Positions 7,850 to 10,884 of a DNA stretch of 22,503 nucleotides are shown here, one piece after another. Position 1 is the stretch's first letter; every line of letters begins with the position of its first letter. Under the pieces are notes generated by a model. The model saw only the letters and a program-made list of their open reading frames with translations. It was not told the origin of the DNA and did no database searches. The stretch is from a virus, in the IMG/VR virus record IMGVR_UViG_3300007735_000492, positions 1-22,503 of that record; one strand, given 5' to 3'. A program made the translations under genes and the position numbers.

Positions 7850-8173
7850 TCAGAATTCTATCTCGGGAACGGGAATGTCAATAGGCCATTTTCCCTGCTT
7901 CTGAAGTTCCTGTACCGTCCGCTTATGGGCGGCAAGCCACTTCTGCTTTCTCTCGTCTTTGGTGAGTTTGTTGCCCTGGTCGATCTCCCAATGGCATCTC
8001 AAACAGGTCGCCGCAGTGTGGGTGTCGCAAGCCTTGATGCTTCGCCCCTTACCTCCTGACCAGTTGGAGTGTGCTGCTTGGACATTCTGCTCGGACCCGC
8101 AACACTGGCATGGGAGCGATGCCACCGCTTTAAGGAGCTTCGGGCTTCGGATGTAAGTTTGCTTTTGATACAT
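7850..8173 (-). CDS. YbcO/DUF1364-family HNH-like nuclease
   Basis: A 107-residue protein. The segment at 20-65 has CQCC (C22, C24, C25), AAHSNW with His35, GKGRSIKACD, then C57xxC60-His61 in CLRCHWEID. It matches the pattern of the lambdoid YbcO family (formerly DUF1364), related to the RecA-dependent P1 nuclease Ref. Family members are HNH-like, metal-dependent DNases encoded among phage recombination genes. It overlaps the end of the transporter gene by 44 nt and has no clear ribosome site of its own, so coupling is likely. It is followed by the terminator at 7794-7815. Confidence 0.75.
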   Translation of the reverse strand: MYQKQTYIRSPKLLKAVASLPCQCCGSEQNVQAAHSNWSGGKGRSIKACDTHTAATCLRCHWEIDQGNKLTKDERKQKWLAAHKRTVQELQKQGKWPIDIPVPEIEF

Positions 8174-8633
8174 GATTCAGAAGGAGTGCCCAGACATAAC
8201 CGCCGCAGACCTTTGCAACGAACTGCATCAGGACGATGTGCGGCATAAGAGAACCAAACGCAATGGTTGGGAACAGAAGCGAATCAACCGCAGCACCAGC
8301 CACATTGGATGTGTTTGCGCGTTTGAACCACGAGCCGGTAACCTTAGTGAAAACGGCCCAGTCCACCACCGCTGCCCCCGTGAAGGCTATCGCTGAGGCG
8401 ATGGCGATCATCTCGGCTGAGGGATTTAGTAGGTAAGTAATTCCCCCAGACGCAAGAATCAACAGGCCCATGTCTCTGGTTTTGAGTTTGACCTGTAGCC
8501 AGTCCCGCAAAGCCAAGTCCAAGCCAATGAGGAAAAACGCATTGATTGGGCTTACTTTTGGCCCAAACTCTGCGATTGATAAGTTGGCGATGGTCATTGC
8601 CAGCGCATAAACGATCACTGCGAAGATAAGCAC
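8130..8633 (-). CDS. VUT/YhhQ-family queuosine-precursor transporter
   Basis: A 167-residue membrane protein with about six hydrophobic helices (near 2-20, 29-43, 54-70, 75-95, 112-130, 132-152). Signature stretches are the early ANL..AEFGP, GLDLALRD (37-44), and the RANTSNVAGAAVDSLLFPT region near 104-122. Together they match the VUT (Vut_1/YhhQ) family that imports preQ0/preQ1-type 7-deazaguanine precursors. It starts with GTG behind a perfect AGGAGG that is encoded in the Gln/Glu-rich tail of the DpdA-like gene, and the two genes overlap by 19 nt. The position beside a DpdA-like enzyme suggests it feeds DNA modification. Confidence 0.85.
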   Translation of the reverse strand: MLIFAVIVYALAMTIANLSIAEFGPKVSPINAFFLIGLDLALRDWLQVKLKTRDMGLLILASGGITYLLNPSAEMIAIASAIAFTGAAVVDWAVFTKVTGSWFKRANTSNVAGAAVDSLLFPTIAFGSLMPHIVLMQFVAKVCGGYVWALLLNHVSKANLHPKPEAP

Positions 8634-9349
8634 AATTCCTCCTGTTGCTGCTGAATGAAGACTGGACTTGAGTTGTAAGTCTCAATCCGGTCTGCGATCA
8701 CTGTGGCCCTTTGGCCTGCCGTTGGCGGGAGATACATCCCGAATCTTGAAAGACTCCCAGAGTTGACTGCTGCGTTTGTGGAGTCCGCGCTTGAGAGGGG
8801 AAGTTTTGTAAAGATGTTGGGGTCAAGCATCCTTAGACCGTGGAGCTTGCACATCGGCCTTCCCTGATCGTCACAGATGGCTTTCATGGCTCGGGCCATT
8901 CGATCCCACCATTGCTGGGTTCCGACAGAGGCAAACTCTCCAGAAGAGCCTAAAGCCACGGTGCGGAACTTACGCGCCAGCCATGTAAGCCTTACGGTTG
9001 GCTCGTGCATATGCCACACCGGAACCCCAGGAAGTGCCTTCGGCCAGCTCTCCACCAAGTAGTCGTTTTCACGGTCTGAGCCGTCAATCACATCAGGAAT
9101 CAGTGCCCAATCAAACCCTGGATGGCGATACCACTCGTGAACCCACTTGATATACCCATCCACATCTAAAGGCTTGCCCTGCTTCCAAGTGGTAAACGCC
9201 CCGTTATCCAGCACAAAAGACTGACAGACATCAGCCACGATTGAGATGTCCTCTGGGTAAGCAAACGACACAAGTGCGTGTCTGCCAGGAAGAAACCGAG
9301 CGGAATCTTCCCTCTTTCCTCCTATCGGAGTCCCGTGATAGTGAATCAT
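8615..9349 (-). CDS. dpdA: DpdA-like DNA 7-deazaguanine transglycosylase (TGT superfamily)
   Basis: A 244-residue protein in the phage DpdA-like branch of the tRNA-guanine transglycosylase superfamily. Family members exchange guanine in DNA for a 7-deazaguanine base. Visible motifs: FVLDNGAF with Asp48, LIPDVIDG with Asp86, VALGSSGEF (132-139) as the base-binding glycine loop, KLHGLRML, and SADST with Asp189, the likely nucleophile by position. The C-terminal zinc-binding Cys cluster of tRNA TGTs is absent, and the protein is much shorter than tRNA enzymes, as expected for phage DpdA. An AGGG site lies seven bases upstream. The start overlaps the previous gene (ATGA), and the end overlaps the transporter gene. 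DNA as substrate is inferred from family and context. Confidence 0.82.
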   Translation of the reverse strand: MIHYHGTPIGGKREDSARFLPGRHALVSFAYPEDISIVADVCQSFVLDNGAFTTWKQGKPLDVDGYIKWVHEWYRHPGFDWALIPDVIDGSDRENDYLVESWPKALPGVPVWHMHEPTVRLTWLARKFRTVALGSSGEFASVGTQQWWDRMARAMKAICDDQGRPMCKLHGLRMLDPNIFTKLPLSSADSTNAAVNSGSLSRFGMYLPPTAGQRATVIADRIETYNSSPVFIQQQQEELCLSSQ

Positions 9350-9673: not shown

Positions 9674-10468
9674 TCATTCCCCACAGAAACAGGCGATTGC
9701 TTCTTCTTTTGGGTCGAACATATCAACCTGCTGCTCTGCGTATCGGGCCATCTGAGCATAAGAAGGTCGGTCGCTTCTGAAGGTGCCGCCTATGGCCTGC
9801 TCTTGTTTAGCCCACCACACCGCTCTTTCTGGCTTGTCAGCAATGAGGGACTGGATCTGATGCGCCCCTTTAAGAAAACAAAGGTCGCAGTTCCCTTTTG
9901 CAGTCACGCCATCTCTGTATTCCAGGCCAAGATCAAAAGGCTGATTGCGCCAGAAGGCCTGAACATCAGCTTGAGTCACCCCAGCATGGACTAGTGGTGT
10001 GAGCTTTGTATCTCTCATTTTTGCCGCTCTGCGTTGCTCATCTGCCCGTATTCCGACCATCGTGTCGTACTCTGGCTGACCGATTGCTTTCATGTATCGG
10101 TCAATCGTCAAGACCTTTAGCTCTGCCGTACAGAACCTAGCCACAGGGTTTGGAAGGTAGTTCCGCTTTTCGATCAGGTGAGCGAATGGACCCCCGTCTC
10201 TACTGGCAGTGTCGAAACCCACAACGCTGAATTTCTCTGGCGCATCGCTGAACTCAAGCCATGTGATCGGAACCCCCCACTCTTTTGAGCAGCGATCCAC
10301 AAATCGAAGTGTCGCCTCATCTTCCTTACCAGTATTAGCAAAAATTACCTTTGCCTCATCTGGCAATCCATTATTAGATTGCAATACTCGCCACAACATA
10401 TATGCACTGGTTCTTCCACCGGAAAAACTAATACAGGTCGGGCAATCAATCTTAAATGGATCTCTCAT
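9674..10468 (-). CDS. PAPS-reductase-like PP-loop protein
   Basis: A 264-residue protein with the adenylating PP-loop SFSGGRTS (14-21), the NTGKE segment at 45-49, RFCTAELK at 111-118, GIRADE at 139-144, CDLC at 194-197 and a CFC near the C-terminus (260-262). This is the phosphoadenosine phosphosulfate reductase family as found in many phages, where the substrate is mostly unknown. The several cysteines could hold a thiol or Fe-S centre, as in the DndC relatives of this superfamily. I use the ATG at 10468 because it makes an ATGA overlap with rusA; a TTG at 10483 is less likely. Role: either sulfur metabolism or nucleic acid modification. Confidence 0.85.
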   Translation of the reverse strand: MRDPFKIDCPTCISFSGGRTSAYMLWRVLQSNNGLPDEAKVIFANTGKEDEATLRFVDRCSKEWGVPITWLEFSDAPEKFSVVGFDTASRDGGPFAHLIEKRNYLPNPVARFCTAELKVLTIDRYMKAIGQPEYDTMVGIRADEQRRAAKMRDTKLTPLVHAGVTQADVQAFWRNQPFDLGLEYRDGVTAKGNCDLCFLKGAHQIQSLIADKPERAVWWAKQEQAIGGTFRSDRPSYAQMARYAEQQVDMFDPKEEAIACFCGE

Positions 10469-10884
10469 ATTTGCACCACGCAAACATCTACACCAGGCAC
10501 AAGAGAATATACCTTCTTGGCAGATAATCTCACTACCTGGGTATCGTCTTTATATACGATTCCATTCATAGCGTCTAAATATGCCTTGATAATGTTATCT
10601 ATATCGGGCTTCTTGGTGGGCAGCTTCTCGTTTCGGATGCAGGCCTCTGTGAGCTTCTTTGTGGTGGATGCCGGTACGCCTATCCTGATGTAGAGATCGA
10701 CCGATACAGGCCCTTCTAGTGGGCTTCCTGAGCCTATTGCTCGTTGTGCCCAGGCCTTGATCGTGGCTTCGTAGGTCTTTGTCTTCTGATCGGTGTAAGT
10801 GGTGACGAAGTTTCCAGCCCTTCGGAACCGGGGCCGTCCTTTGCCTTGAGGTGGGCCTTCAACGGTGAATACTACGAAGCTCAT
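10465..10884 (-). CDS. rusA: RusA-type Holliday junction resolvase
   Basis: A 139-residue protein of the RusA family, which cuts four-way DNA junctions as a dimer. The conserved active-site block is clear: KKPDIDNIIKAYLDAMNG (91-108) with Asp94, Asp96 and Lys100, then YKDDTQVV with Asp113/Asp114. The N-terminal strand GPPQGKGRPRF is also typical. GGAG lies eight bases before the ATG. It overlaps the preceding small gene by 26 nt and the PP-loop gene by 4 nt. The length is slightly over the usual 120. It should resolve recombination or replication intermediates before packaging. Confidence 0.92.
   Translation of the reverse strand: MSFVVFTVEGPPQGKGRPRFRRAGNFVTTYTDQKTKTYEATIKAWAQRAIGSGSPLEGPVSVDLYIRIGVPASTTKKLTEACIRNEKLPTKKPDIDNIIKAYLDAMNGIVYKDDTQVVRLSAKKVYSLVPGVDVCVVQI

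Follow-up and report, generated by a model that had tools for sequence, protein, structure and literature searches.

Organization of the dpdA-transporter locus

The DNA analysed here, referred to as the window, comprises the 22,503 bases of IMG/VR record IMGVR_UViG_3300007735_000492 (positions 1 to 22,503). Its gene content was found to be that of a tailed phage, with genes for portal, large terminase, tail fibres, endolysin, Erf, exonuclease, RusA, an O-like replication protein and a Cro-like regulator. Among the window proteins that were scanned, none was recognized as a capsid protein, and the 22.5-kb record looks incomplete. No near relative of the whole window was found by megablast against phages. 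A large protein encoded on the minus strand at positions 190-2307 carries an N-terminal GDSL lipase/acylhydrolase domain together with a weak tail-fibre match and is possibly a receptor-modifying tail protein.

A short dpdA-like gene and a gene of the VUT/QPTR (YhhQ) family overlap on the minus strand (Table 1), with the reading frames and the extent of overlap given in the initial annotation. The junction reads CAACAGGAGGAATTGTGC on the coding strand. The dpdA stop codon falls in the first 19 nt of the VUT gene, and an AGGAGG Shine-Dalgarno motif, as read from the sequence, lies within dpdA, 4 nt upstream of the VUT GTG. This layout is usual for coupled translation, and translation of dpdA and VUT is predicted to be coupled.

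Table 1. Features at and around the dpdA-VUT junction, in window positions
Feature	Position	Strand	Remarks
HNH endonuclease-family gene	7850..8173	-	phrog_131; start inside VUT 3' end
VUT/QPTR (YhhQ) family gene, 167 aa	8130..8633	-	GTG start, TAA stop; PF02592, phrog_4899
dpdA-like gene, short form, 244 aa	8615..9349	-	ATG start, TGA stop; phrog_887
dpdA 3' end/VUT 5' end junction	8615..8643	-	19-nt overlap 8615-8633; AGGAGG 8638-8643
Small ORF upstream of dpdA, 137 aa	9346..9759	-	stop overlaps dpdA start as ATGA
PAPS-reductase-like PP-loop protein gene	9674..10483	-	PF01507, phrog_424, PADLOC SspD model 4e-16

The HNH gene is part of the same operon and probably lies outside the dpdA-VUT module; the order dpdA-VUT-HNH was confined to close relatives. 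A family search with the 137-residue ORF gave no convincing match, and this ORF was also found upstream of dpdA in close relatives. The PP-loop gene lies two genes upstream of dpdA, and was found near dpdA in many, not all, relatives. When the window was compared to its nearest relative, dN/dS was 0.038 for dpdA and 0.067 for VUT, and the value for VUT was 0.11-0.14 against two more distant relatives, these being the comparisons that allowed a ratio to be computed. These low values indicate that both genes are under purifying selection and functional constraint.

Assignment of the 244-residue protein to the DpdA family

The 244-residue protein matched phrog_887 (queuine tRNA-ribosyltransferase) with an E value of 1.9e-67, and the same PHROG contains DpdA of phages CAjan and 9g, both of which have been studied by experiment. 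Direct comparison by BLASTP showed 27% identity to CAjan DpdA over 190 aa (E 1e-12). Searches of Pfam, NCBIfam and PADLOC returned no matches for this protein, and PDB sequence searches with either the single sequence or a profile gave nothing convincing; the family was settled by PHROGs and by direct comparison with CAjan and 9g. The sequence evidence places the window enzyme in the phage DpdA family, alongside the CAjan and 9g proteins. The protein does not fit the tRNA-guanine transglycosylase (TGT) family PF01702, as both the Pfam TGT match and the CxCxxC zinc site were absent. DpdA of 9g and CAjan likewise lacks this metal motif, which belongs to the tRNA enzymes.

Alignment with DpdA of CAjan and 9g showed no variation at residues D48, G50, F52, H113, G134, H170, P184, S187, D189 and S190. 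H170 aligns to His196 of 9g, a residue reported to be missing from DpdA2 (PMC6884629). The motif set proposed in the initial annotation, Asp48, Asp86, GSSGEF and Asp189, held in part: Asp48 and Asp189 did not vary across the short family or in the DpdAs of CAjan and 9g, whereas Asp86 was invariant within the short family only, being Ser in CAjan and 9g, and only the Gly (G134) of GSSGEF was invariant, the remaining residues being variable. Asp189 would be the likely nucleophile and Asp48 the likely acid/base of the short DpdA.

The AF2 model of the protein was of moderate confidence (pLDDT 74.7). Foldseek alone against the PDB gave TIM barrels, led by tryptophan synthase alpha, as its top matches. 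In contrast, VIA realignment placed Cap10 and the TGTs on top among the best 50 matches, with Z 13-15 over 210-235 residues; the highest match was Cap10 (9ntn, Z 15.4), tied with TGTs. The fold comparison thus agreed with a transglycosylase, but TGTs were told apart from generic TIM barrels by VIA realignment only. When Foldseek was run against viral models, many phage proteins named queuine tRNA-ribosyltransferase were retrieved.

Assignment of the membrane protein to the VUT/YhhQ family

The 167-aa protein scored 38.5 bits against PF02592, compared to a curated cut-off of 27.2, and its AF2 model showed six helices at a pLDDT of 90.9, so that the earlier description of a six-helix VUT-family transporter was borne out. 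The protein shares phrog_4899 with the putative preQ0 transporter of CAjan, and from its sequence the window membrane protein is a member of the VUT/YhhQ family. CbiM and vitamin-type S components of ECF transporters made up the ten best VIA matches of the model; at their Z scores of 8-10.7, chance matches between helical bundles are also possible. E. coli YhhQ (COG1738/QPTR) is also a PF02592 protein, but has 221 aa compared to 167 and showed only weak direct similarity, in the C-terminal half (BLASTP E 3e-4; hhalign 78% over 78 columns). With the equivalog models of queuosine precursor transporters the protein scored far below the cut-offs (TIGR00697, 16 vs 51 bits; PRK11212, 19 vs 252), and its substrate is for this reason suggested by family and context, not assigned.

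dpdA and the transporter gene are repeatedly paired

A scan of IMG/VR with a transporter profile retrieved 80 loci, and in all 80 dpdA was found adjoining the transporter gene on the same strand. The two genes were within 150 bp of each other in 79 of these pairs, nearly all overlapping, and 236 bp apart in the remaining one. Among named phages, dpdA was adjacent in eight of the nine inspected records with the transporter. The transporter gene came first in PEAT2, Tbat1_6, ECO111 5-P, Opt-719, RCIP0319, Phc and LHE71, and dpdA came first in AB3P2; the transporter tree splits the dpdA-first from the transporter-first groups.

The similarities of the two partners were incongruent. In one Pseudomonas-type pair, DpdA was 70% identical to that of the window and the transporter just 52%; PEAT2 and Tbat1_6 had transporters more similar to the one of this pair (59-64%), together with DpdAs approximately 42-44% identical to the DpdA of this pair. 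Conversely, locus L117 had a transporter 71% identical to that of the window and a DpdA just 41% identical. From the different gene orders of the lineages and the mismatch in similarity between partners, we conclude that pairs were formed more than once. The count of 80 in 80 does not represent 80 independent events, since close relatives inherit the pair by descent, and for the same reason repeated re-pairing outweighs the raw count as evidence for a joint function. The PP-loop and HNH cargo neighbours varied while the dpdA-VUT pair persisted. These findings show that the pairing of dpdA and the transporter is not due to chance. Searched from the side of the enzyme, dpdA often stood alone, and 58 of 80 dpdA-retrieved loci had no transporter in flanks of up to 6 kb.

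Related transporter genes were also found in bacteria. In Achromobacter aestuarii, the region that holds the dpdA-VUT pair resembles a prophage, with Erf-, SSB- and integrase-like ORFs read from translated sequences. Two dpd islands also contain a related transporter gene, located beside DpdC and DpdB in Massilia sp. YIM B02769 and beside DpdE in Paraburkholderia sp. BL9I2N2. YhhQ has been reported in approximately 9% of dpd islands (GATOR-GC, PMC11888242); in our survey of VUT in dpd islands, which covered 399 genomes of one order, the stretches retrieved with DpdB spanned just about 4 kb, and the result bears on the two islands above only. The transporters of bacterial dpd islands are independent support for the pairing.

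Probable source of the 7-deazaguanine base

Models of QueC, QueD, FolE and Radical_SAM gave no match within the 22.5-kb window, in agreement with the initial reading that no synthesis homologs are present there. QueC was found in none of 55 records searched, 10 of these named phages. QueD, FolE and radical-SAM proteins were found in none of 27-28 non-control records, and the expected genes were recovered in the CAjan control. The preQ0 synthesis genes were absent from the complete named relatives and from the longer contigs searched. The proposal that the module is salvage-only therefore stands for the complete relatives, but for the window phage it is a projection from these relatives because its own record looks partial.

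Among 36 bacterial genomes with similar transporters, a strong QueC match was found in 34 and TGT in 35, Achromobacter aestuarii included, which argues that the likely host makes preQ0 itself. Because 34 of 36 have QueC and 58 of 80 dpdA loci are without a transporter, import probably supplements the host pool. The base is probably drawn from that pool and topped up by import, and the original idea of a transporter raising the supply is toned down to this extent. The transporter may matter when phage replication outpaces host synthesis, or when the pool is low.

Comparison with known systems

CAjan and 9g DpdA (DpdA1 type) share with the window enzyme the same PHROG, the Asp48/His170/Asp189 pattern and a predicted transglycosylase fold. 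In contrast, they have 306-317 aa compared to 244, and the segment that follows the nucleophile in them is mostly missing in the window protein, which is approximately 22-27% identical to them and is not accompanied, within the 22.5-kb record, by folE, queD, queE and queC. Deletion of CAjan dpdA abolishes dPreQ0 in virion DNA (PMC6884629).

Salmonella phage 7-11 and Mycobacterium phage Orion are dpdA-only phages without synthesis genes (Hutinet et al. 2019); in the 22.5-kb window, which looks partial, no such gene was matched either. In the DNA of 7-11, approximately 0.02% of G was found as dADG, and modification was not detectable in Orion (PMC6884629), so dpdA-only phages are not known as heavy modifiers. 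The 7-11 DpdA is similarly short (234 aa) and was 35% identical to that of the window over 184 aa (E 9e-32). As phage 7-11 carries this short homologue and has dADG, the short DpdA has a precedent for DNA modification, at trace level. No VUT match was found in 7-11, whereas in the window the transporter gene overlaps dpdA.

A preQ0 transporter has been described within a full phage cluster in EC151 (PMC8310023). The Seuratvirus-type clusters (CAjan, EC151) resemble the window in having a preQ0 transporter of PHROG 4899 and a dpdA locus, but there the transporter sits with the complete preQ0 synthesis set and is only 25% identical to that of the window over 130 aligned residues. Bacterial dpd islands, like the phage unit, join a 7-deazaguanine DNA-modification enzyme to the same type of transporter; they also carry dpdB/dpdC and restriction genes, whereas the phage unit consists of dpdA and the transporter only.

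Neither protein family is new, and salvage by dpdA-only phages is an idea already proposed by Hutinet et al. 2019 (PMC6884629), who considered host supply or uptake and pointed to YhhQ homologues in phages; a second publication likewise has the host supplying dpdA-only viruses (PMC8651126). We found no account in the literature consulted of a tight, repeatedly formed unit of short DpdA and transporter without synthesis genes. Phage YhhQ homologues were reported to show no correlation with any phage group (PMC6884629); a pattern is now seen, in which one transporter subfamily lies beside a short DpdA, in either order, with synthesis genes absent.

Proposed function of the dpdA-VUT pair

The reading that we favor, at a probability of approximately 0.7, is that dpdA and VUT form a host-fed unit for phage DNA modification. 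We infer that the VUT protein would supply the infected cell with an imported 7-deazaguanine base (preQ0 or preQ1, judging from the function of its family) in addition to the host preQ0/preQ1 pool, that the short DpdA would swap selected guanines in phage DNA for this base, and that DNA altered in this way would be protected from the restriction enzymes of the host. Provided that both transport and insertion into DNA are confirmed, the window unit works like the CAjan system minus the synthesis genes. This would explain how small phages afford 7-deazaguanine modification, at a cost of about 1.2 kb of DNA compared to a cluster of at least five genes. Such pairing in phages unable to make the base looks like a recurring two-gene DNA disguise with a borrowed base, and the question of dpdA-only modification becomes testable in the laboratory E. 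coli phages LHE71 and Lg3.

In a stronger version, transporter and short DpdA would be a dedicated, possibly physically coupled import-and-insert unit, with protection requiring 7-deazaguanines released by neighbouring bacteria and not host synthesis. We consider this version unlikely. If true, DNA modification fed by the environment would form a class that is widespread and was re-formed independently.

It is also rather unlikely that DpdA modifies DNA while the transporter is incidental, an auxiliary metabolic gene for tRNA queuosine precursors co-located as cargo of a recombination spot. The many same-family dpdA loci without VUT are in line with that explanation, as are the mEp021-type phages, which carry VUT without dpdA, and the role of the transporter family in bacteria, which is to serve tRNA queuosine (PMC11130926). 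In contrast, mere co-location does not fit the invariable adjacency of dpdA in the profile-retrieved viral loci, the two gene orders and incongruent partners, the occurrence of VUT in bacterial dpd islands, or a pair that stays constant among varying PP-loop and HNH cargo.

A target other than DNA for the transglycosylase-like protein, either tRNA or a protein as in Cap10/Cap9 of type IV CBASS, appears improbable. The best VIA match was Cap10, tied with TGTs, and Cap10/Cap9 deazaguanylation provides a precedent for the remodelling of a TGT-family enzyme to act with a base linked to protein (PMC11996544). Against this, the protein shares homology, its PHROG and D48, H170 and D189 with CAjan and 9g DpdA; a QueC-like Cap9 gene was not found in relatives, the metal motif of the tRNA enzymes is absent, and dADG is present in the DNA of phage 7-11, whose homologue is about as short. 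Least probable is an inactive or relic enzyme at a locus without present modification function, as Orion, without detectable modification, might suggest, since dpdA and VUT are under strong purifying selection and the catalytic residues were invariant in all aligned relatives.

Related genes outside the paired loci

In phage mEp021 (Enterobacteria phage, locus L176, 2956-4223), the gene that comes after the transporter gene is DNA methyltransferase-like (phrog_757). DpdA was searched for in the genome of this transporter-bearing phage and was absent, and the possibility that the gene after VUT is a hidden DpdA was rejected on account of its phrog_757 identity. The mEp021 transporter group may have another partner.

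In Pseudomonas phage Epa33 (L099, 6001-8830), a DpdA 68% identical to that of the window has no transporter annotated alongside, and the gene immediately after it carries the annotation C-5 cytosine-specific DNA methylase. This phage may combine two base modifications.

The dpd island of Massilia sp. YIM B02769 (L235) contains two DpdB-like genes, one QueC and a divergent transporter gene. Transporters from Burkholderiales bins without a dpdA neighbour (L178, L180, L181 and L192) were found to nest in the phage transporter clade, which suggests phage-host exchange; the L178 transporter lies near a uvrA-like ORF and that of L192 near a DnaE2-like ORF.
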